Position numbers and translations under genes: made by a program. A DNA stretch of 32,932 nucleotides from Candidatus Methylumidiphilus alinenensis. Its GTDB lineage: Bacteria; Pseudomonadota; Gammaproteobacteria; Methylococcales; Methylococcaceae. The notes under the pieces were generated by a model. That model worked only from the letters and a program-made list of their open reading frames with translations, did not search any database and was not told where the DNA came from. Position 1 is the stretch's first letter, and each line of letters starts with the position of its first letter. Below, one piece after another: positions 16,821-31,071 of this stretch. The DNA lies in NCBI GenBank assembly GCA_003242955.1, contig QJPH01000472.1, positions 1-32,932 on the forward strand. The letters run 5' to 3'.

Positions 16821-16895
16821 GATTTAAACAACCCCTCCTCGGGACTGCCCTCATCTTTTCGCTAATCAATTATATTGCATTCTGAAGGATTTCGT

Positions 16896-19010
16896 ATGAG
16901 AATCAAAAAAACATTCGCCCCAGCCCTTGCCTTCGCGTTGTTGGGTGCGGCCGCCGGTACCGCCGTTGCTGCGGTTGGCGGCGGCGTCCTAACGGACCCT
17001 GGCGCACTGGAAGGCAAGCACTTCCACCCGCTGGGCAAGATGCCGTCGAAGTTCACCATTGACCTGCGCAACGGCATCAAGGCAACGCTGCCCTTCGAGG
17101 ACAAGCGGGACTTCGACGAGGCAGGGAAGGGCTTCATCGCCGCGCCGCCGTACAAACAGATCATGGCTGATGCCGGTCACGTCGCCTGGGACATGGCCAG
17201 CTATGAGTTCCTGTTGAAAGGCAAGGATTTCGAGAGCATTCATCCCTCGCTGCAACGGCAGGCCGTCCTTAACATGGCCTATGGTCTCTATGAAGTGCTG
17301 CCCGGCAAAATCTACCAAGTGCGAGGTTTCGACTTGGCTAACATCAGCTTCATCAAGGGCGACACCGGCTGGATCATTTTCGATCCGTTGACCACCAAGG
17401 AAACCGCCCGTGCGGCGCTGGCATTCATCAACGAAAAGCTTGGGCCACGTCCGGTCGTGGGCGTCGTCTACTCCCACTCCCATGTGGATCACTTCGGCGG
17501 TGTGCGCGGGGTGGTTGAGGAAGCCGACGTGCGTAGCGGCAAGGTCAAGGTGATCGCACCAGTAGGCTTTTTAGAGGCTGCGATATCCGAGAACGTGTTT
17601 ACCGGCAATGCCATGTCGCGGCGCACCCAATACCAGTACGCCGTGTTGCTGGCACGCAGCCCTTTCGGCCATGTGGACCAGTCGATTGGCAAGAACGTAG
17701 CGAACGGCAATGTCGGGCTGATTCCGCCGAACCTCATCATCACCAAGGATTTCGAGGAGCTGACGCTTGACGGCGTGAAGATGGTGTTCCAGAACACGCC
17801 GGACACCGAGGCACCGGTCGAGATGAACACCTACTTCCCGCAGTTCAAAGCCTTCTGGGCAGCGGAGAACATCACCGGCACGATTCACAACATCTACACG
17901 CTGCGCGGCGCCCCGGTGCGCAACGCCTTGAACTGGTCGAAGCAGATCAACAACGCGTTGTACAAGTTCGGTCAGGAAGCCGAAGTGATGTTCGCGTCGC
18001 ACAGTTGGCCGCGTTGGGGCAACGAACGTATCCAGGAAGTGATGCGCACACAGCGCGACACTTACGCCAACCTCAACAACCAGACCTTGCACTACGCCAA
18101 TCAGGGCGTAACCATCAACCAGATTCATAACGTCTATCAACTACCGCCAAGCCTGTGGAAGCAATGGCCCGCGCACAGCTACCACGGCTCCAGCGAACAC
18201 AACAGCCGGGGTGTCATCAACCGCTTCCTAGGCTACTGGGACGGCAACCCGGCCACGCTGATTCCGCTCTCGCCAGAAGATTCCGCGCCGCTGTACGTTG
18301 AGATGATGGGTGGCCCGGTCAAGATCATGGCCAAGGGCAAGAAGCTCTACGACCAGGGCAAGTACCTTGAGGCATCGGAGATTCTGAACCGGCTGGTCTA
18401 TGCCCAGCCCAAAAACCAGGCGGCCAAGAACCTGCTGGCGGATGTTTTCGAGCAGATCGGCTACCAGAAGGAAAGCCCGAGCCTGCGCAATAGCTTCCTC
18501 CAAGGGGCGTATGAACTGCGCACGGGTCTGCCGGGCGGCGTGCCGGTCAACTCGTCCGGGCCGGATGTGGTTAGGGCGATGTCGACTGAGAACTGGCTCG
18601 ACTTCCTCGGCATTAGCGTGGACCCCAAGAAGGCAGAGGGCATGGCGTTCGTCATCAACTTGGCGACCCCCGACAACGGCGAAAAGTATTTGGTGGAAAT
18701 GAGCAACGCGACGCTGACCAACATCAAGGGCGTACAGGCGAAGAAACCGGACCTCACGATTACACTTAACCGCACCGAACTCGATCAAGTGATGATGGGC
18801 GTGAGTACGTTCGACGACCTGATCAAGGCAGGCAAGGCGAAATTCGAAGGCGACCGCAAACCCTATGAACAGCTCAAGGGCATTCTAGTCACTTTCACAC
18901 CGAACTTCGAGATACTGCCGGGAACTGCGGCCGCGAAAACGGCGACCTCGCCGGATACGAACCCGCTCAAGGTGCCCGACTTGATGCCGGCGGACGCGGC
19001 TGGCGACTGA
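16896..19010 (+). CDS. Alkyl sulfatase / MBL-fold linear primary-alkylsulfatase (SdsA/BDS1-like), periplasmic
   Basis: A 704-aa precursor with a signal peptide (about 1-26, AAAGTAVAA). The metallo-beta-lactamase zinc motif HSHVDHFGG is at 194-202 (His194, His196, Asp198, His199). Further ligands are expected around AENITGTIHN and ASHSWPRWG. A helical dimerisation region and a C-terminal sterol-carrier-like domain (from about 590) complete the SdsA1 layout, and length agrees (about 650-700). Enzymes of this family hydrolyse primary alkyl sulfates such as dodecyl sulfate to alcohol and sulfate. GAAGGA precedes the chosen ATG. It is monocistronic: a nested repeat upstream and a hairpin downstream bound it. 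Confidence 0.93.
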   Translation: MRIKKTFAPALAFALLGAAAGTAVAAVGGGVLTDPGALEGKHFHPLGKMPSKFTIDLRNGIKATLPFEDKRDFDEAGKGFIAAPPYKQIMADAGHVAWDMASYEFLLKGKDFESIHPSLQRQAVLNMAYGLYEVLPGKIYQVRGFDLANISFIKGDTGWIIFDPLTTKETARAALAFINEKLGPRPVVGVVYSHSHVDHFGGVRGVVEEADVRSGKVKVIAPVGFLEAAISENVFTGNAMSRRTQYQYAVLLARSPFGHVDQSIGKNVANGNVGLIPPNLIITKDFEELTLDGVKMVFQNTPDTEAPVEMNTYFPQFKAFWAAENITGTIHNIYTLRGAPVRNALNWSKQINNALYKFGQEAEVMFASHSWPRWGNERIQEVMRTQRDTYANLNNQTLHYANQGVTINQIHNVYQLPPSLWKQWPAHSYHGSSEHNSRGVINRFLGYWDGNPATLIPLSPEDSAPLYVEMMGGPVKIMAKGKKLYDQGKYLEASEILNRLVYAQPKNQAAKNLLADVFEQIGYQKESPSLRNSFLQGAYELRTGLPGGVPVNSSGPDVVRAMSTENWLDFLGISVDPKKAEGMAFVINLATPDNGEKYLVEMSNATLTNIKGVQAKKPDLTITLNRTELDQVMMGVSTFDDLIKAGKAKFEGDRKPYEQLKGILVTFTPNFEILPGTAAAKTATSPDTNPLKVPDLMPADAAGD

Positions 19011-19121: not shown

Positions 19122-21020
19122 TCAGTGAGCGTTTCCCACTGGTGCGGCGTAGGCATCAAGCACAAGTGTTTCAATATTGTCCCCGGTCAAAGCTTGCAAA
19201 AGCTCCACCAGCGCGTTGATCTCTGCTTCGCTTAAACCCAAGGGCTTGATGAGCGGGTCCAGATTCTCATTCGGCTCACCTCCCTTATTATAAAATTCCA
19301 GCACATCCTTTAAATTCGCAAGCACTCCGTTGTGCATGTAAGGCGCGGTGAGGGCGATATTGCGCAAGCTGGGTGTCTTGTATTTCCATCGGTCTGCCGG
19401 ATTCTGAGTAATTTCGTACAAACCGAGGTCGTTCTGTTTTTCCTCCCCCACCGTGCCAATGGTGGTCGCGTCCATGTCGAAGCTGATGCCGGGCGCGACT
19501 TGCACAGGCTGTTTGGCCGGTTGTTTCTTCATGCTCTCCCGATAACCCAAGCCAGTGTTGTGCAATTGATTGTCGGTGAACAGGGCTTGCCGATCATTGA
19601 TGACATGGCAGCGGGAGCAGCCGGCCTTCCCGGAGAACAACTCCAACCCATTTTTGGCTTGCTCACTCAAAACTCCCGGTTGTTTGCCGTAATGCCAACG
19701 ATCAAAAGGCGAATTGGCGGAGATTAGCGTCCGCTCGTAACTGGCGATGGCTTGCCCTACGGTTTCCATGGACGGGCCGCGATGGAAGGCTTTTTCAAAC
19801 AAGCCCCGGTAATCGGATAACGCTTTGAGCTTGTCGGTCACGAAGCCGATGGAAGGGTTAGCCATTTCGTTGTGCGCCAAAAACGGCCCCCACACTTGGT
19901 TCTCCAAGGTACTTTCCCGTCCATCATGAAACAGCCGCTCAGCATAGGCCACGTTGTATAGCGTTGGCGAATTGCGCCGCACCGTGCGGCCTTCCACACC
20001 CACCGCTGTCGCCTGTTCCTGGCTGGTGTAGCCCTGTTCCGGTATATGGCACATGGCGCAGGAAAAGGTATTATTCAAGGACAGTCGCCGGTCAAAGAAT
20101 AGCTTGCGGCCCAGTTCAATCTTCTCCCGACTTAAAGGATTGTCTTTGGGCGTAGGCACTTTTGGCAGTCCTAAAGGTGGGTTTTGGGCGAGTTTGAGCA
20201 AATCGGCAGGCTTGCCTTTGCGCTGTGCCAAGGCCACAGAATGGGTTTGGTATTGCTTGGATTCATAGCCGGACTTGTCATCACCGGGGCGCAGCAAATT
20301 CGCTTTTGTGACATCGCTGGGTTGCGTGGGTTTTTTAGCCGTTTCGCCTGTTTCCTTGAGCAAGGTTTCGATATCCGCAACCACCGTATCAGGATGCAGC
20401 ACAGATACCGTGTAAGTATTGCGGATTTGCTTGTGCTGGTCGATTAAAAAGACCCGTAGCAAATGGGAGTATTTACCCGTGGGCTGGCCCTTTTCGTCGA
20501 ATTCCTTCTCCACTGACTGGCCGTAAGCCTTGAGGATGGGCTGGATGTCCGCCTCCGAGGCGGTGGTGAGAAAAAGCCATTCCACCCCGGCATCTTGGAA
20601 AGCCTGGCCGTAATGGGCCATGGCCTGCGGCGTGTCATGCTCGGGGTTGAAGCTCAAGGTTATCAAACGAAGCTTCCCGGCCAGTTCTGGCGAGGTTTTC
20701 AGCTTGGCTTTGATTTTTTGCAAAACCGAGGTTGCTAGCGGACAACCATTGGCATCGTCGCAAGTGGCATAAATGAAACTCAGCAAAACCAGCTTGTCAC
20801 CATACAGGTCATGTAATTTTCTCGTTTTTCCATCCACATCCAATACTTTGCCATCGGCGGCGGAACCCATTTCTGGTAGTTGATAACTGCCGGGCTTGGG
20901 GGCGGGGAAAGGCAGGGGGGAATAGCCCGGAGCCAAATCCCTTGGCTGTGGGGCCGCTTCTTCTGCATTGACTGATACCCAGACGAGAAAGCTGATTAGA
21001 AAAAAAGTTACAAGGTTCAT
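19122..21020 (-). CDS. SCO1/SenC-di-heme cytochrome c peroxidase (MauG-like) fusion, periplasmic
   Basis: A 632-aa protein with a signal peptide (1-19, ending VNA). Residues about 45-225 are a SCO1/SenC thioredoxin-like domain with YATCDDANGCPLA and His186 in KYSHLLRVFLID. The paired cysteines are Cys87 and Cys93, five residues apart instead of the usual three. Residues about 285-620 are a MauG/CcpA-type di-heme peroxidase with haem sites CAMCH (321-325) and CSRCH (468-472) and the TPSLRNIALTAPYMHNG segment. SCO proteins carry copper to cytochrome oxidase or act as thiol reductases; MauG-like proteins reduce peroxide or oxidise protein residues. The fusion suggests copper- or redox-linked peroxide handling in the periplasm. 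Confidence 0.9.
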   Translation of the reverse strand: MNLVTFFLISFLVWVSVNAEEAAPQPRDLAPGYSPLPFPAPKPGSYQLPEMGSAADGKVLDVDGKTRKLHDLYGDKLVLLSFIYATCDDANGCPLATSVLQKIKAKLKTSPELAGKLRLITLSFNPEHDTPQAMAHYGQAFQDAGVEWLFLTTASEADIQPILKAYGQSVEKEFDEKGQPTGKYSHLLRVFLIDQHKQIRNTYTVSVLHPDTVVADIETLLKETGETAKKPTQPSDVTKANLLRPGDDKSGYESKQYQTHSVALAQRKGKPADLLKLAQNPPLGLPKVPTPKDNPLSREKIELGRKLFFDRRLSLNNTFSCAMCHIPEQGYTSQEQATAVGVEGRTVRRNSPTLYNVAYAERLFHDGRESTLENQVWGPFLAHNEMANPSIGFVTDKLKALSDYRGLFEKAFHRGPSMETVGQAIASYERTLISANSPFDRWHYGKQPGVLSEQAKNGLELFSGKAGCSRCHVINDRQALFTDNQLHNTGLGYRESMKKQPAKQPVQVAPGISFDMDATTIGTVGEEKQNDLGLYEITQNPADRWKYKTPSLRNIALTAPYMHNGVLANLKDVLEFYNKGGEPNENLDPLIKPLGLSEAEINALVELLQALTGDNIETLVLDAYAAPVGNAH

Positions 21021-21889: not shown

Positions 21890-22867
21890 TCAAGCCAGCG
21901 CCTGGACGGCGGCAAGGTCGATTTCCTCGCAACGCACCAAATGCTCCAACGCATCTTCCAGCAACACCCGTGCTTTTGCCGTCTCGCGGTGCAAGTGGGC
22001 GTGCAAGGCAGCGTCGGCCTCGTTGCGGTTTTCGCAGTCCGCGCTATAGGCTTCAAAGGCATTGAGGCGGAATAGCAAATCGGCGAGGTGTTGCGGGCAT
22101 TCGCAGCGTATGCTGGTGGGCAACCGGGTCACGGCAGAGAGGGTCGCGTCATCGAAGCGGCGCGGCGGGAGGGCTTCCCCGGCTGTCGGCAGGGCCAGTG
22201 GCCGGGGGAGGGTAGCCCGGCCGTCAATGCGGCAAGCCTGGGCCAAGGCTTCGGCGGTGACCGGTGACCTCAGGGTGGGGATGCCGTCTTGGCGCAAGCG
22301 CTCCAGCAAGGCGCTCATGCCGAAGCTGTAAACCACCACCGTGCGTTTGGCCCCTGATTGCATGGCTAGCCCTTGAAGTTGGGCAACCCGGTCGGCTTGC
22401 AGTGCGGGCATTTCCAAGACCAACACATCGGGCTTTAGACCGATGGCGTCTTTTTCGAAATCGGCATAGGACACATGGCTGCCGGTGATTTCGATATCGT
22501 CCCATTCGTTCTTCCAATACCCCACCAAAAACGGCAGGGCGTTGCCTTGCACCAAAACGCGCAGGCGGCGGCCATCAGCCGACACAGGCTGTGGCCTGTC
22601 CTGATGGACTTGCAGCCGCTCCCGCAAAGCTTCCTCGCTCAGAGCGGCGACGGCACTGATGGCGTGCCCTAGGTCCACCAACTGCTTGATCAGGCTTAGC
22701 CGGGTCAGGTCCGAGCGTGAATACTGGCGCTTTTTGTCTTCCGTGCGCATGGGCGTCACCATGTGGTAGCGGCGCTCCCATATGCGCAAGGTGTCCAGCG
22801 GTATCCCGGTCAAGCGGGAGACGGCACCGATGCCGAAGCTGAGTTCTGGTTCTGGGATGGCAGTCAT
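21890..22867 (-). CDS. MerR-family regulator, class II LitR-like (no visible cobalamin-binding motif)
   Basis: A 325-aa regulator. Residues 11-75 are a MerR DNA-binding domain: FGIGAVSRLTGIPLDTLRIWERRY (helix-turn-helix plus first wing), then RQYSRSDLTRLSLIKQLVDLG. Residues about 101-212 look like a Rossmann-type effector domain (RRLRVLVQG, KPDVLVLEMP, RTVVVYSFGM) resembling B12-binding domains of CarH/LitR proteins, but I find no cobalamin-binding DxHxxG. That matches the class II LitR type, which depends on a partner photoreceptor. The C-terminal 100 residues are helical with two Cys (IRCECPQH). It is divergent from an operon containing a short LOV receptor. Function as repressor or activator of that operon is inferred. 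Confidence 0.85.
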   Translation of the reverse strand: MTAIPEPELSFGIGAVSRLTGIPLDTLRIWERRYHMVTPMRTEDKKRQYSRSDLTRLSLIKQLVDLGHAISAVAALSEEALRERLQVHQDRPQPVSADGRRLRVLVQGNALPFLVGYWKNEWDDIEITGSHVSYADFEKDAIGLKPDVLVLEMPALQADRVAQLQGLAMQSGAKRTVVVYSFGMSALLERLRQDGIPTLRSPVTAEALAQACRIDGRATLPRPLALPTAGEALPPRRFDDATLSAVTRLPTSIRCECPQHLADLLFRLNAFEAYSADCENRNEADAALHAHLHRETAKARVLLEDALEHLVRCEEIDLAAVQALA

Positions 22868-22904
22868 GGTTGAAATCTTCCATTAAAATATTGAACTTTT
22901 GTAC

Positions 22905-22954
22905 ATTATATGACCTAAACAAATAGTTGACAAACATTTTTTTAGGTCTACAAT
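22905..22954. promoter_or_regulatory. Divergent overlapping promoters with a shared operator
   Basis: Plus strand: TTGACA (22927-22932), 16-bp spacer, TACAAT (22949-22954), firing the five-gene operon. Minus strand: TTGTCA (complement of 22928-22933), 17-bp spacer, TATAAT (complement of 22905-22910), firing the regulator gene. The two -35 boxes overlap by five bases. GACCTAAA (22912-22919) and TTTAGGTC (22941-22948) form an 8-bp inverted repeat centred on the shared -35 region. Each arm reaches its -10 box: directly on the plus side, one base away on the minus side. This geometry suits a single MerR-type dimer controlling both directions. The operator role is inferred. Confidence 0.7.
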
Positions 22955-23030
22955 TTTAATCAAGCAAAGTCTGGGCATAGAGTCTGGGCTTGGTAACTTT
23001 CCGAAAACACATCAAATGGAGGATAGGGCA

Positions 23031-23903
23031 ATGTTGAATCTCGACGCGGACATCTTTCTTGTGGCCGACCATCTGGGTCAATTGGCTATGCGGCCGTCAG
23101 CGACCTCCGGCACCGGCGACCTGCTGGCCTTGGTCTTCCTGGCTTTCCTGGGGCTATGCCTGGTGCTTGAACGGCGCAGCCCGTTCCTGCGCCCAAGTCT
23201 CAAGCTCTTGAAAAATTCTTATTTCACGAACTTCTGCACGTTCCTGTTCAACGATGTCAACCTGTCGCTGCTGTCCATCCCCTCGCTGTATTTCATCGCC
23301 CAGCAGTTTTCCGGCAAGGGCTTGTTAAGCAGCTTGGAAGACGGCCCGGCCAAATACCTCCTCAGCTTCCTCCTGCTGGACCTTGCCTTGTACGCCTGGC
23401 ATTACGCCACCCACCATGTTGACGCACTTTGGGCCGTCCACAAGGTGCACCACAGCGACAAGGCATTTAATGTCTCCACCGGCCTGCGCTTCCACTTGGG
23501 CGAGCTGATCCTGGAGGCACTGGTGAGGGTGGCCTTCATCGGCGTGGTGGGCGTGGATGCCGAGGCCGTGCTGGTGAACCAGGCGGTCATCAGCTTGTTC
23601 GTGTTATTCCACCACACCAATGTCAGCTTTTCTGGTGAACGGCTTTTGTCCATGGTGTTCATTGTACCCCGTCTGCATCGCTTGCATCATTCCGTGCTAC
23701 GGGAGGAACATGACAGCAATTACGGCGCGGTGTTTTCCATCTGGGACCGCCTGTTCGCGACCTTGAAGCAACAAGAACCCAAAGCCATAGGCTTGCAGGG
23801 TGTGGACGAGCAAGGCCTGCTAGACTTGGTGAAATACGGTTTCACCACCCGCATCCAATTCAAGCGAAACCCGCAGCTTGCCGCAGCCCGCAAGCGCGCC
23901 TAA
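23031..23903 (+). CDS. Sterol desaturase / fatty acid hydroxylase superfamily protein
   Basis: A 290-aa membrane protein with at least four hydrophobic segments (30-47, 75-92, 108-123, 160-200). The full set of metal-binding histidine clusters is present: WHYATHH (123-129), HKVHHSD (137-143), FHHTN (193-197) and HRLHHS (216-221), plus EHDSNYG. These di-iron enzymes hydroxylate or desaturate lipid chains or isoprenoids in the membrane. The ATG at 23031 is chosen over 23016 because GGAGGA lies 7 bases ahead of it. It is the first gene after the divergent promoter and is followed at 34 bp by the flavoprotein gene. The substrate is unknown. Confidence 0.9.
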   Translation: MLNLDADIFLVADHLGQLAMRPSATSGTGDLLALVFLAFLGLCLVLERRSPFLRPSLKLLKNSYFTNFCTFLFNDVNLSLLSIPSLYFIAQQFSGKGLLSSLEDGPAKYLLSFLLLDLALYAWHYATHHVDALWAVHKVHHSDKAFNVSTGLRFHLGELILEALVRVAFIGVVGVDAEAVLVNQAVISLFVLFHHTNVSFSGERLLSMVFIVPRLHRLHHSVLREEHDSNYGAVFSIWDRLFATLKQQEPKAIGLQGVDEQGLLDLVKYGFTTRIQFKRNPQLAAARKRA

Positions 23904-23937
23904 TTTTAGTTTGACCCACATTATTCAAGGATACGCC

Positions 23938-25092
23938 ATGGCTTACCTACCTTTTTATTTTCCGGCTACAACACCCCCCAAAGTGGTCATAGTGGGGGGC
24001 GGTTATGCAGGTATGGCGGCTCTGGTCACTTTTTTTCGGCACTGCCCTTCCGCCGAAGTGACCCTCATAGACCCCCGCAGCGACCACTTTAAAATTACCC
24101 ATTTGCACGAGCGGTTCCGGGATCCAACGACAAGGATCAAGATACCCTTCGAGGTCCTCGCGAGGCGCTTTGGATTCAGGCACGTGTGCGCGACGGTGGA
24201 TTTTGATGGGGAAACCTTGCGCCAGTGGCAAATTGACCGGCATCTGACGATTGATGGGCAACGATTGCCATTTGACTATCTTCTACTGGCGACGGGCAAC
24301 AAAATCGACAAGATTTCGTCCTCTGACAGGGTCGTCGATCTTGACCTATTGTCCGGTGAGGCTTTCCATACGGTAATTGGGCGTTTATCGGCATTGGAAG
24401 ACGGGCGGGTTCCGATAACCGTGGTGGGGGGTGGTCCGACCGGCATTCAATTCCTGTTCGAGATCGCCCACTGGCTAGCTGTGGGGAAAAAACCTAACCC
24501 CCTCCGCCTGATTGAGGCGTCAGACAATGTGTTGACGCAATTCAGACCTGGGCTGGGTAAATATGTCCGGTCGAACATGGCCAGTCTTGGGGTTGAGTTT
24601 TTGCCCAACACCCTCTTTCAGGGGCAAGAAGGCGAAGACCTGCGGGTCGAAACTAAGCAGTCCGGCGGACAAACACGACTTACCTCCGGCCTGACGTTTT
24701 GCTTTGTGGGCAAACAGTCATCACTGGCCTTGGGAACCAACCCCCTTGGCCAGGTGGTGGTGGGACGGACCCTTTTGTCACATATCTTTGCTGCGGGCGA
24801 TTGTTCAAGCTACCGCTCGTTTGGATCGAACTCCAAAACGGCACAGTCCGCTGTCCGCAAGGGTAAGCTGTGTGCCCGGAATATTTTGCGCCACTCAAGC
24901 AGGCTGAAGCTCCTGGAACCTTACCTGCATCAGGATTTGGGCTATGTCCTCAGCCTAGGTCCCCGTGATGCCATTGGCTGGATAGGATTGCAGGCCAACG
25001 TAGTCGGTGGCGCACCCGCCGTGGCGGTGAAGGAGCTGGTCGAAGCGCAGCATGAATTGCTTCTGGCCGGAATCGACACCTATTTAATTTGA
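23938..25092 (+). CDS. NDH-2-like FAD/NAD(P)H-dependent oxidoreductase
   Basis: A 384-aa two-dinucleotide-binding flavoprotein. The FAD motif VIVGGGYAGMAA is at 17-28, the NAD(P)H motif ITVVGGGPTGIQ at 160-171, and the FAD-closing AAGDCS at 285-290. A C-terminal region with LGPRDAIGWIG could lie on the membrane surface, as in type II NADH dehydrogenases. It starts at ATG 23938 behind CAAGG; an upstream start would extend into the previous gene. Likely reaction: transfer of electrons from NAD(P)H to a quinone or similar acceptor. In this operon it could feed electrons to the neighbouring di-iron hydroxylase or to the quinone pool. Confidence 0.88.
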   Translation: MAYLPFYFPATTPPKVVIVGGGYAGMAALVTFFRHCPSAEVTLIDPRSDHFKITHLHERFRDPTTRIKIPFEVLARRFGFRHVCATVDFDGETLRQWQIDRHLTIDGQRLPFDYLLLATGNKIDKISSSDRVVDLDLLSGEAFHTVIGRLSALEDGRVPITVVGGGPTGIQFLFEIAHWLAVGKKPNPLRLIEASDNVLTQFRPGLGKYVRSNMASLGVEFLPNTLFQGQEGEDLRVETKQSGGQTRLTSGLTFCFVGKQSSLALGTNPLGQVVVGRTLLSHIFAAGDCSSYRSFGSNSKTAQSAVRKGKLCARNILRHSSRLKLLEPYLHQDLGYVLSLGPRDAIGWIGLQANVVGGAPAVAVKELVEAQHELLLAGIDTYLI

Positions 25093-25125
25093 CCATCCTG
25101 CACGTTGGAAACCGGAGGCTGCAAC

Positions 25126-25623
25126 ATGTTTAATTTAGGATCAAAAGATCCTGTCGCGGGCAAGGCAAGCATCATGATCGACTGTCCCAGCGAAGAGGTG
25201 TTCAAGTATATTGCTGTGGATTTTTTTCAAAACTACCCCAAATGGTCGCCGGAAGTGATCAAGCTTGAAGCGCTTACCGAGGGCTCCGTGCAACTGGGAA
25301 CCTTGGCCAGGCAAGTCCGTATGGACCAAGGCCATCGCTCGGAATCAAAGTTTCGCGTGACCATTTACGAATCCAACAAACGCTTATGCTTTTCCGGCGT
25401 TTCCAATCCTTATCGATGCACTTACGAATTACAAGAACTAAACAATGGAAAAAAGGCTATGTTGAATTTTACTTTCGAACTTCTCGAACTCCAAATGTTC
25501 ATGCGCCCCTTCGAGAAGCTGATACGCATTGTGGTTCAGGATGGAGCCGAGCGCACGGTGCGAAACCTGAAGCGTCTGACTGAAGCCAATATCGCCGCAA
25601 AAGCCCAACTACTTCAACAATAA
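25126..25623 (+). CDS. START-like (SRPBCC) domain protein
   Basis: A 165-aa protein with the SRPBCC helix-grip pattern: an early CPSEEVFKYIAVDFFQNYPKWSPEV segment, a run of beta strands, and a long C-terminal helix (FEKLIRIVVQDGAERTVRNLKRLTEA). Such domains hold hydrophobic ligands such as lipids, quinones or polyketides. There is no signal peptide. GGAGG lies 7 bases before the chosen ATG. It sits between the flavoprotein and LOV genes with 33- and 21-bp gaps, so it is part of the same operon. A ligand related to the hydroxylated lipid or a quinone is a guess from context. Confidence 0.8.
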   Translation: MFNLGSKDPVAGKASIMIDCPSEEVFKYIAVDFFQNYPKWSPEVIKLEALTEGSVQLGTLARQVRMDQGHRSESKFRVTIYESNKRLCFSGVSNPYRCTYELQELNNGKKAMLNFTFELLELQMFMRPFEKLIRIVVQDGAERTVRNLKRLTEANIAAKAQLLQQ

Positions 25624-25644
25624 ATCGTCAACAGGAGAAAACAG

Positions 25645-26112
25645 ATGACTTTCGTGGTGGAAAAAGACCCTGGGTTAATCCCGCAAATACTTTCCAAAAT
25701 ATTGGATTCCTCGGTGAATGGAATCACCTTAGCCGATCCCGACCAAGAAGACATGCCCATTGTGTATGCGAACAAGTCTTTCGAAACTATGACCGGGTAT
25801 TCCCAAGAAGATATCATCGGCCATAACTGCCGCTTCCTTCAAGGCAAAGATCGGGAGCAGGAGGGCCGCTTCCAATTACGGAAGGCCATTGACAGTTGCC
25901 AGCCAATTGAGGTGACCTTGCGTAACTACAAAAAAAACGGGGAGCCTTTCTACAATCATCTGGCGCTCACACCGCTTTTCGACGGCAATGGCAACCTCAT
26001 GTATTACCTGGGCGTACAGTATGATGTGACCCGGCAGGTCAAGGCGGAAGAGGAAATCAAGCGCCTCAGTGAAGCTTTGGAAGAAATGACCGTCAGGGCG
26101 GCAAAGCCTTAA
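25645..26112 (+). CDS. Short LOV blue-light photoreceptor
   Basis: A 155-aa single-domain protein of the short LOV type. The photoactive cysteine is Cys62 in the canonical GHNCRFLQG (59-67). Flavin contacts are visible at Asn94 and Asn104 (RNYKKNG, FYNHLALTP) and Gln125 (LGVQYDVT). The N-terminal cap and C-terminal J-alpha-type helix (about 131-150, VKAEEEIKRLSEALEEM) are the only additions and probably mediate dimerisation or partner binding. No output domain is attached, so signalling must go through another protein. The MerR-type regulator encoded at the head of this locus is the obvious candidate, by analogy with P. putida short LOV and class II LitR proteins. Confidence 0.95.
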   Translation: MTFVVEKDPGLIPQILSKILDSSVNGITLADPDQEDMPIVYANKSFETMTGYSQEDIIGHNCRFLQGKDREQEGRFQLRKAIDSCQPIEVTLRNYKKNGEPFYNHLALTPLFDGNGNLMYYLGVQYDVTRQVKAEEEIKRLSEALEEMTVRAAKP

Positions 26113-26146
26113 CCACTGCATCGCCCCCCCAACAGGAATCATTCGA

Positions 26147-26620
26147 ATGACTCAAATCAACACGGGCGCCTGTGTGGCCTACACGCCGAAACAAATGTAT
26201 GACCTGGTCAATGATGCGGCTGCCTATCCGCGCTATTTGCCCCTATGCAGCGAGGTGGCAATTTGTTCACAGGGCGAAGACCGCTTGACGGCGAAGATTA
26301 CCTTGGCCAAAGGCAAGATCAAGCTTGATTTCACGACTGCCAACGTGATGGAGGATGGCAAGCGCATCGACATGGATTTGGTGGATGGCCCCTTCAAATA
26401 TCTGCATGCCACTTGGTTGTTTAGTCCAACAAGTGATGGGGGCGCCGAGGTATCCTTCAAGCTGGATTTTGAGTTTTCCAATCCCCTGTTGCGCGTGGCG
26501 TTCGGCAGCTTCTTCAAAGGAATAGTGGAGTCGATGGTGGGGGCCTTTTGCGAACAGGCAGCACTTCGATATGGGGACCCACATGGATCAGGAGTCGCCG
26601 CACACAAAGCTAACACTTAA
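26147..26620 (+). CDS. RatA/Coq10-like SRPBCC protein
   Basis: A 157-aa protein of the RatA/Coq10 group: AYTPKQMYDLVNDAAAYPRYLPLCSEV near the N-terminus, VDGPFKYLHATWLFSP in the middle, and the C-terminal helix FGSFFKGIVESMVGAFCEQAALRYG. Length matches the family (about 145-160). Coq10 proteins bind ubiquinone; E. coli RatA was reported as a ribosome-association toxin, but many family members are quinone-binding. As last gene of the LOV operon, 34 bp after the receptor gene, a quinone or lipid role is more plausible than a toxin role. No RatB-like neighbour is present. Confidence 0.85.
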   Translation: MTQINTGACVAYTPKQMYDLVNDAAAYPRYLPLCSEVAICSQGEDRLTAKITLAKGKIKLDFTTANVMEDGKRIDMDLVDGPFKYLHATWLFSPTSDGGAEVSFKLDFEFSNPLLRVAFGSFFKGIVESMVGAFCEQAALRYGDPHGSGVAAHKANT

Positions 26621-28758: not shown

Positions 28759-31071
28759 ATGGCACGGAAACGGGCGGAATTGAAGGAAAACAGCAAGAAA
28801 AACGGCAATGGCGCGAACATTGGCTTCGAGGCGCAGCTTTTCCTTGCCGCCGACAAATTGCGGGGCAACTTGGAACCCTCCGACTACAAGCATGTGGTCC
28901 TGGGTTTAATCTTCCTGAAATACATTTCCGATGCTTTTGAAGCCAAACACGCAGCCTTGTTGGCCGAAGACCCGCTGGTTGCGGAGGATGCAGACGAATA
29001 CCTTGCCGAGAATGTTTTCTGGGTTCCGAAGGAAGCCCGCTGGTCACACCTGCAAGCCAACGCCAAACAACCCACCATCGACAAACTCATCGACGATGCG
29101 ATGATTGCCATTGAGGCGAACAACACCAGTCTAAAAGGTGTACTGCCCAAAGACTATAACCGGCCTGCCTTGAATAAGGTCATGCTGGGCGAGTTGATTG
29201 ACTTGGCAAGCGGCATCGCCATGCATGAACAGAGAAGCAAGGCGAGGGATATTCTCGGGCGCGTCTATGAATATTTCCTAGGCGGCTTTGCCGGGTCCGA
29301 AGGCAAGCGCGGTGGTGAGTTCTATACTCCCCGTTCGGTTGTGCGCGTGTTGGTCGAAATGTTGGAGCCTTACCAAGGCCGCGTTTATGACCCGTGTTGT
29401 GGTTCCGGCGGTATGTTCGTGCAGTCGGAAAAATTTGTCGAAGAACACGGCGGACGCATCGGCGACATTGCCATTTACGGGCAGGAAAGCAATTACACGA
29501 CTTGGCGGCTGGCCAAGATGAACTTGGCCGTGCGCGGCATCGACGCGGAAATCCGCTGGAACAACGACGGCAGCTTCCATAAGGACAAACTTAAAGACCT
29601 ACGTTTTGATTACATCCTTGCCAATCCGCCGTTTAATATTTCCGATTGGGGCGGCGACCGCTTGCGCGAAGATGCCCGCTGGAAATACGGTGTCCCGCCG
29701 GTCGGCAATGCCAACTATGCTTGGCTGCAACATATCCTTTGGCATTTGTCCCAAAACGGAACGGCGGGCGTGGTACTTGCCAACGGTTCCATGTCTTCTT
29801 CTATTGCAATCGGCCCTTTTGGTTCACGGATGAAAGCCGATACTTATGTAAATACTGGCATTCCAGTAATACGTGGAACTAATATATCTGATAGCATAGC
29901 TTGGAAGGGCGAATGGGTTTATATATCAGAGGAAATGGCAGATTCAATGCCTAACTGTATCGTTAAATACGGTGATCTTGTTTTTCCTCATCGTGGTTCA
30001 ATTGGAGAGGTTGCAATTATTCCAGATGATGCTTTGAGATATATGATCTCTACAAGTTTAATGAAAATTACGGTTGATGCAAAAAAAGCAAACTCTTTAT
30101 TTTTGTATTACTATTTTCGTTCTTCATTAGGTCGCCAGGAAATATTGAAATATTCATCACAGGTTGGAACGCCAGGAATAGGACAACCGCTATCATCACT
30201 CAAACAGTTTCGTGTTCCATTGCCTCCGCTTCATGTACAAAAGGGGATTGCTGACATCATCGGGGTACTTGACGATCTATTTGACCGAAACAAAAAGACG
30301 AACGAGACACTCGAAGCCATGGCCCGGTTGTTCTTCAAGGATTGGTTTTTGGATTTTGGCCCCACCCGCGCCAAAGCCGAAGGCCGACTTGCCTATCTTG
30401 CACCTGATCTTTGGTCACTGTTTCCTGATGCGCTTGATGATGACGATAAGCCAATAGCATGGGAAACATCGACTATTGGACAAGAGGTTCGAGTTGTTGG
30501 AGGTACGACACCTAGCACCAAAGAACCCACTTATTGGAATGGTGAATTTTGCTGGGCTACCCCGAAAGACCTTTCTTCACTAAAAACCCCTGTCCTCCTT
30601 AGTACTGAAAGGCGAATAACGCAAGCCGGTATTTCACAAATCGGTTCAGGTTTATTGCCGATTGGAACAGTGCTTCTCTCATCCCGTGCCCCAATCGGTT
30701 ATCTGGTAATCTCTCAGGTAGAAACGGCTGTCAATCAAGGCTTCATAGCTATGGTTTGTGAGGGAAGATTATCAAATGTTCTAGTCTGGCTTTGGACGCA
30801 AGCCAATATGGAAGTAATACTTCAGAAAGCGAATGGTTCTACATTTCAGGAGATCAGTAAAGCGAATTTCCGTCCTATCCCAGTGACCGTAGCTGATTCG
30901 CCGATCCACCGAGCATTTGATGAAATTGCTCAACCGATCTATAAGCAGATCGTCGCTAATGAACAGGAGTCGCGCACTCTTGCCCAAGCCCGCGACCTGC
31001 TCTTAGCAAAACTGCTATCCGGCGAAATCCGCTTACAAGAGGCTGAGAAGATAGTGGAGCAAGCCCTATGA
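28759..31071 (+). CDS. HsdM-HsdS chimera: type I methyltransferase N-terminal part fused in frame to a specificity subunit
   Basis: A 770-aa frame with two unlike halves. Residues 1-347 are HsdM: N-terminal helical domain ([15 protein letters not shown]), SAM motif [10 protein letters not shown] (211-219) and catalytic NPPF (289-292), running to [12 protein letters not shown] normal HsdM would continue about 150-200 residues. Instead the frame switches to [15 protein letters not shown], the start of an HsdS target-recognition domain, missing only its first residues. TRD1 (about 350-490), a conserved spacer ([15 protein letters not shown] to [21 protein letters not shown]), TRD2 and the terminal repeat [13 protein letters not shown] follow. 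The TRDs are visibly AT-richer than the HsdM half. No hsdR is present. The start is ATG 28759; upstream in-frame codons belong to the SDR region. Confidence 0.88.

Follow-up and report, generated by a model that had tools for sequence, protein, structure and literature searches.

Genes and encoded proteins of the locus

The locus described here occupies positions 21890 to 26620 of a 32,932-bp stretch of DNA from Candidatus Methylumidiphilus alinenensis (Methylococcaceae; contig QJPH01000472.1 of assembly GCA_003242955.1), which was analysed over its whole length and is called the window below. It comprises a gene for a MerR-family regulator and, divergent from it, an operon of five genes encoding a membrane fatty-acid-hydroxylase/sterol-desaturase-type protein, an NDH-like flavoprotein, a START/SRPBCC protein, a short LOV photoreceptor and a RatA/Coq10-like SRPBCC protein. 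The first-pass annotation of this DNA had described these six genes, and its description holds: all six open reading frames (ORFs) are intact in the ORF scan of the window, the gene families are as named, the LOV motif is canonical and the spacing is tight, with 148 bp between the divergent genes followed by intervals of 34, 33, 21 and 34 bp (counted from the ATG codons at 23938 and 25126, which lie inside the respective ORFs). The source genome measures 6.57 Mb in 597 contigs, of which the window is contig 51. A Pfam search finds a gene of the PmoA/AmoA family (PF02461) in this genome, which makes a methanotrophic host very probable.

The LOV gene (25645–26112, plus strand; Pfam, NCBIfam and alignment) encodes 155 amino acids, in which only PAS models exceed their cut-offs and no output domain is found. 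The protein matches PAS_9 in Pfam (2.5e-22), the YtvA blue-light family in NCBIfam (6.1e-48; its 163.5 bits lie below a 250-bit cut-off that was set for a longer protein) and LOV structures in the PDB at up to 9.7e-40. It contains the motif GHNCRFLQG, and residues N61-C62-R63-F64-L65-Q66-G67, N94, N104 and Q125 are invariant across 14 aligned LOV proteins. With the adduct cysteine and the flavin contacts all kept, the earlier designation as a short LOV receptor stands: judged by its sequence, the protein is a canonical short blue-light receptor, for which a photocycle is predicted. Short LOV proteins cloned from Methylocystis display LOV photocycles (PMC4416707), and the Methylocystis loci of the present set have a START gene upstream of a short LOV gene and a divergent hydroxylase gene. 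That paper, however, treats photochemistry, and the terms 'operon', 'start', 'polyketide' and 'hydroxylase' do not occur in its text (PMC4416707). One close LOV relative in Methylocystis (L088, 847–2310) is fused to a DJ-1/PfpI-AraC regulator, and ORFs of the same length are present in L093, L098 and L202 (domains scanned for L088 only).

The START gene (25126–25623, plus strand; Pfam and structure model) lies directly upstream of the LOV gene, of which it is the conserved partner, and encodes 165 amino acids. The product matches Polyketide_cyc2 at 4.7e-11 (43.6 bits against a cut-off of 27.4). Its structure model, with a predicted local distance difference test (pLDDT) score of 94.7, has a helix-grip fold and matches ligand-binding Bet v 1/SRPBCC proteins, with TTHA0849 on top and several ligand-bound plant receptors among the others. 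This fold is shared with RatA/Coq10 and other ligand-binding proteins of the SRPBCC/Bet v 1 type, although identity at the fold level is only 12–20%; searched by sequence against solved structures, START gives a best E-value of 0.088, which is chance level. By its Pfam match and its fold, the protein is a member of the SRPBCC/START superfamily and is predicted to carry a hydrophobic ligand. The last gene of the operon (26147–26620, plus strand; Pfam and NCBIfam) encodes a second protein of SRPBCC type, which matches Polyketide_cyc at 1.1e-28 and does not reach the RatA equivalog cut-off of NCBIfam (7e-38; 130 bits against 258). It is the second RatA-like copy in the genome; the other, 34% identical to it, is located on contig C19 and is followed by a RatB-like gene (RatB named by eye).

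The two remaining operon genes encode putative enzymes. The hydroxylase (23016–23903, plus strand; ORF scan, Pfam and NCBIfam) matches FA_hydroxylase (PF04116) at 2.6e-25 over residues 115–249 (89.8 bits against a cut-off of 31), and it does not reach the NCBIfam equivalog cut-off for the ornithine lipid hydroxylase OlsE (73.2 against 475 bits). The four-His cluster named in the first-pass annotation was identified by eye. The flavoprotein (23938–25092, plus strand; 384 amino acids from an internal ATG, the mechanical ORF start being 23878) matches Pyr_redox_2 at 1.8e-22, with Pyr_redox as the only other Pfam model above its cut-off; the best NCBIfam model, TIGR03169, scores 53.8 bits, far under its cut-off of 310. 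The earlier label 'NDH-2-like' goes back to the Pyr_redox_2 match only, so that membership of NDH-2 is putative. As to gene content, the operon does encode lipid/quinone-type proteins, as had been proposed.

The START–LOV gene pair across genomes

The comparison of LOV loci drew on 25 loci around 26 other short LOV genes of related genomes, the best 80 named loci from an alignment query and four loci from 398 genomes sampled within the phylum. The final set, from which fused proteins were removed, consists of 72 non-identical short LOV proteins; left out of it are the identical duplicates L057 and L064, the truncated L106 (158 bits), and L194 and L195, which come from the START query. Rows L033 and L182 were omitted from one alignment (A3). 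In G014 a partial second LOV hit lies at a contig edge. Counts over this set ignore relatedness, and near-identical sequences may remain in it.

A START gene is located directly upstream of the LOV gene, on the same strand, for 70 of the 72 short LOV proteins, at a distance of at most 265 bp in 69 loci (by ORF or hidden Markov model) and of 422 bp in one. Because it recurs in this way, the adjacency exceeds what is expected by chance. It spans Gamma-, Beta- and Alphaproteobacteria, with named members in Methylococcaceae, Methylomonas, Methylobacter, Methylocystis, Nitrosomonas, Nitrosospira, Thiorhodococcus, Thioalkalivibrio, Halomonas and Accumulibacter. START is found beside none of 38 multidomain LOV proteins, four of which are fused to a DJ-1/AraC-type regulator or have that length. 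Among 61 related genomes, a short LOV gene (at least 57% identity) occurs in 25 and START in 27, covering all 25. In a sample of Gammaproteobacteria START is rare (5 of 274 genomes), and no START gene was found on plasmids. The conserved core of the locus is thus the START–LOV pair, in which START, not MerR, is the constant neighbour of LOV. The first-pass annotation had passed over this, as well as the occurrence of MerR–hydroxylase pairs without LOV. Searches of the open-licence literature returned no description of the START–LOV pair or of the whole gene set, which had not been recognised as a described system at the outset either. The partnership is genuine and conserved, and within the reach of these searches it has no earlier description.

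Besides START, several other genes recur near the 72 short LOV genes: the hydroxylase in 31 cases, the NDH-like flavoprotein in 23, one or the other of these in 52, a RatA-like gene in 18, MsrP in 11 and MsrQ in 14. The linkage of LOV with the hydroxylase, which the first-pass annotation had suggested looking for, therefore recurs, in several gene orders; depending on the lineage, the hydroxylase gene is upstream of START–LOV, downstream or divergent. In Methylomonas sp. LW13 (L075), for instance, the order is START–LOV–hydroxylase–MsrP–MsrQ. Orthologues of the NDH-like flavoprotein (at least 47% identity) are present in 15 of the 61 genomes, every one of which has START. When the lifestyle of the named loci is taken from their record titles, a hydroxylase or NDH gene accompanies 20 of the 24 loci that belong to methane or ammonia oxidisers, 3 of 4 from unplaced metagenome-assembled genomes and 0 of 13 others, some of which have short flanks; two of the four oxidiser loci with neither gene stop at a contig edge. 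PF02461 was found in 8 of the 12 START–LOV genomes searched.

Some variants of the arrangement were also observed. L051 and L074 have tandem START–LOV START–LOV duplicates followed by a hydroxylase gene, with a RatA-like gene between the duplicates in L074. A START gene without LOV adjoins a DJ-1/AraC regulator in L215, and the LOV-less START copies of one genus in L217–L219 share a neighbour family, represented in L217 by a protein of the di-haem peroxidase type. A candidate START–RatA gene fusion in G022 was rejected: a 362-amino-acid ORF matches RatA, but START occupies a different frame.

The MerR regulator and the shared control region

The MerR gene (21890–22867, minus strand; ORF scan, Pfam, NCBIfam and alignment of relatives) encodes 325 amino acids. 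The protein matches MerR_1 at 1.2e-14 and has an N-terminal helix-turn-helix (HTH) domain at residues 11–80; in Pfam only HTH models are matched. Its middle domain has no Pfam match, and its C-terminal helical domain carries an invariant CECPxH...C...H set, in which C255, C257, H260, C278 and H289 do not vary across 18 aligned relatives. In a profile comparison, its matches to CarH and further MerR structures are confined to the HTH. A single-sequence structure model was not used (pLDDT 44).

The regulator had initially been taken for a class II LitR protein that lacks the cobalamin-binding DxHxxG motif. The lack of the motif agrees with the Pfam scan, in which neither B12-binding model matches at E<=0.1. 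In the same scan the MerR proteins L155, L157, L158 and L075, as positive controls, do match PF02607. PmlR1 and PmlR2 match B12-binding_2 (PF02607) at 1.1e-5 and 3.5e-7 (PMC9758184). The class II identity itself was rejected, since PF02607 and the operator consensus of PplR are both absent and the end-to-end relatives belong to a different MerR type. Going by these comparisons the protein is LitR-like, yet not class II by the PF02607 test. Over 93% of its length it is 36% identical to a MerR protein of Burkholderia, which likewise matches only HTH models in Pfam and keeps the CECPxH motif. The relative in Burkholderia anthina is near genes for a photolyase and GTP cyclohydrolase I, a cargo that differs from that in the window. 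Photolyase-type genes are found beside MerR relatives in 4 of 16 regions (a photolyase in L168 and a DPRP-type cluster in L170, L173 and L179), the other scanned neighbours being mixed. Class III LitR proteins are reported mainly from Burkholderia and have a light-dependent spectrum (as told in PMC9758184). This suggests a regulator linked to light or photodamage, perhaps a class III LitR. The protein is 52.7% identical to a MerR protein encoded on a plasmid of Methylomagnum ishizawai (L206), where no hydroxylase, START or LOV gene is annotated nearby. A viral contig from IMG/VR (L203) also encodes a full-length relative (33% identity), two other viral matches being limited to the HTH.

A full-length MerR gene of this type occurs beside LOV in 4 of the 72 cases, namely the window and three congeners, so that LOV and MerR are not supported as a general pair. 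Two genomes of one sister genus, G007 and G021, have MerR–MsrQ divergent from a hydroxylase that is 66–70% identical to the one in the window, with START–LOV not in this module. G007 has NDH–START–LOV–RatA at a separate site (L039), and in G021, the genome of which is 89% complete, no short LOV or START gene was found. The congeneric loci L032–L034 have MerR and then MsrQ facing hydroxylase–START–LOV; RatA comes next in L032 and L034, and L033 ends in RatA. Hydroxylase, NDH, START, LOV, RatA and MerR occur all together only in the window, L038 having all except MerR. From this gene order, the locus of the window is read as a probable fusion of two functionally related modules.

The control region between merR and the operon (22868–23015; promoter-site and motif scans) holds the two highest-ranking promoter-like sites found there, TTGACA-N16-TACAAT for the operon and TTGTCA-N17-TATAAT for merR, which are divergent and overlap at the -35 hexamer. 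This overlapping layout is kept in all four congeners holding the locus, although the -10 hexamer of the operon is weak (TAAGCT) in three of the four. The element ATATGANCTAWACAAA at 22908–22923 consists for a large part of the -10 hexamer and spacer of merR. A genus-wide regulon for it was considered and rejected: exact copies are confined to this promoter, with a single one per genome in four genomes, and copies with one mismatch are no commoner than those of a backward control. In the gap between MerR and hydroxylase genes of G007 and of G021, TGTACA occurs twice (0 of 2000 first-order shuffles).

Outside the locus, the window contains a 632-amino-acid single ORF (19122–21020, minus strand) in which a SCO1/SenC domain is joined to a di-haem cytochrome c peroxidase (MauG) domain (Pfam), and a gene for an alkyl sulfatase-type protein (16875–19010, plus strand; Lactamase_B, Alkyl_sulf_dimr and Alkyl_sulf_C). 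Further on, a single ORF (28792–31068, plus strand) combines HsdM_N, N6_Mtase and two Methylase_S stretches in one frame, i.e., a type I restriction methylase and its specificity subunit, with a seemingly short methylase portion. There is no Rfam match anywhere in the window, and no tRNA was found in it.

A possible link from blue light to membrane lipids and quinones

The genes, their families, order and conservation, and the promoter layout are best read, with a probability of about 0.5, as a methanotroph blue-light operon that joins two older modules and links light to lipid or quinone handling. In the first module, NDH–START–LOV–RatA, the short LOV protein would sense blue light through a flavin–cysteine adduct and would pass its signal chiefly to its candidate effector START, the product of the adjacent upstream gene. 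START in turn would carry a hydrophobic ligand, presumably a quinone or lipid, and cooperate at the membrane with the flavoprotein and the RatA/Coq10-like protein. The second module, MerR(-MsrQ)/hydroxylase, would consist of a LitR-like MerR protein, acting as a putative repressor, and the divergent membrane lipid hydroxylase. In the genus of the window the two modules appear to share a single control region, in which the divergent promoters overlap. Repression by MerR would thereby act on merR and on all genes of the operon at once. By analogy with PmlR2/PmSB-LOV, this repression might be lifted by illuminated LOV. The output may be the repair or adjustment of membrane quinones or lipids under blue-light (photo-oxidative) stress, in cells whose abundant membranes would harbour light-sensitive methane or ammonia monooxygenase. 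LitR-like transcription control is best read as an addition, made in this genus, to a module of a START-type carrier and quinone/lipid enzymes.

A number of observations weigh against this picture. START was not found beside two short LOV genes, in Thiocapsa (L087) and Lamprocystis (L097). G018 and G022 have NDH–START–RatA but lack LOV, and further START copies without LOV occur in G007, G008, G016, G024 and G029 as well as in L191–L193 (1.5-kb flanks). START therefore works without LOV, though LOV goes with START, an asymmetry consistent with LOV regulating either START or the operon that contains it. The adjacency could also reflect co-regulation rather than contact. Moreover, the congeneric genomes G004–G006 do not have the locus, NDH is absent from L032–L034, hydroxylase homologues (E<=1e-30) are not dedicated to LOV, being present in 48 of the 61 genomes, many without LOV, and PF02461 was not found in the START–LOV genomes G001, G003, G214 and G324. 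In the control region of the window, TGTACA occurs once, at 22900 (0.047 by shuffle), and in that of L032–L034 not at all. The intergenic region has no site within two mismatches of the LitR/PplR operator T(G/A)TACA-N12-TGTA(C/T)A; the window has a single match to this consensus, at 19559, which is the number that chance would give.

Within the blue-light operon reading, the most novel proposal is that the short LOV protein acts directly and post-translationally on START, with blue light opening or closing a lipid/quinone carrier. This is put forward tentatively. Light would then determine whether a membrane quinone or lipid reaches the flavoprotein, the hydroxylase or the RatA-like protein.

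A somewhat doubtful alternative is that illuminated LOV binds the HTH domain of MerR and lifts repression, START being merely cargo. PmSB-LOV does so in vitro with PmlR2 of Pseudomonas mendocina, which is called the first identified partner of bacterial short LOV proteins, and this system offers a solid precedent for a LOV protein that targets a repressor of the MerR family, as the first-pass annotation had assumed for the LitR of P. putida (PMC9758184). In both PmlR2/PmSB-LOV and PplR/PpSB-LOV of P. putida a short LOV protein without output domain is encoded near MerR, and the light-regulated cargo includes the fatty-acid-modifying ufaM (PMC9758184). A second short-LOV antirepressor is LdaP, which acts on PpsR in Dinoroseobacter shibae, although the repressor family is a different one, the cargo is photosynthesis and LdaP is active in the dark state (PMC10890935). 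The divergent position of MerR and the overlapping promoters in all four congeners with the locus fit such a route. It is opposed by the linkage counts, 4 of 72 for MerR against 70 of 72 for START, and by MerR/hydroxylase modules separate from START–LOV, in G007 (with LOV elsewhere in the genome) and in G021. Unlike PmlR2 and PplR, the MerR of the window has no PF02607 and no matching operator, and it faces a hydroxylase/NDH-like/START/RatA cargo in which START is the constant LOV neighbour; in the Pseudomonas system, PME15565 sits between pmlR2 and pmSB-LOV.

Less probable again is that MerR is itself a sensor, responding to light or redox state by means of the invariant Cys/His set in its C-terminal domain, as has been proposed for the class III LitR proteins of Burkholderia with their light-dependent spectrum (PMC9758184), and that LOV handles START separately. 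The invariance of the five residues in 18 relatives, the full-length match to a Burkholderia MerR adjoining a photolyase, and the MerR/hydroxylase pair without LOV in G021 are consistent with this. However, both the class III assignment and any binding of a metal or cluster are putative, and the single-sequence structure model of MerR is of low confidence. That LOV detects redox state or flavin within an operon for quinone/lipid maintenance, with light having no physiological role, is improbable: the neighbours include redox proteins (Pyr_redox_2 flavoprotein, MsrP/MsrQ) and the named members come largely from habitats that, to go by their names, are dark, but all 14 aligned members keep the adduct cysteine and the flavin contacts, and short LOVs of Methylocystis, at the level of the genus and not sequence by sequence, show photocycles (PMC4416707).

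Few effectors of bacterial short LOV proteins have been identified, and the START protein encoded upstream in 70 of 72 loci is a concrete candidate. If the direct action of LOV on START is true, a photoreceptor would have a lipid/quinone carrier as its output in place of transcription or a kinase, and this would be widespread in methane and ammonia oxidisers. Ammonia oxidisers are inhibited by light. The lipid/quinone enzyme genes accompany 20 of 24 named loci of methane and ammonia oxidisers, against 0 of 13 others, an association that would link blue light to the handling of membrane quinones and lipids in organisms that control methane and nitrification.

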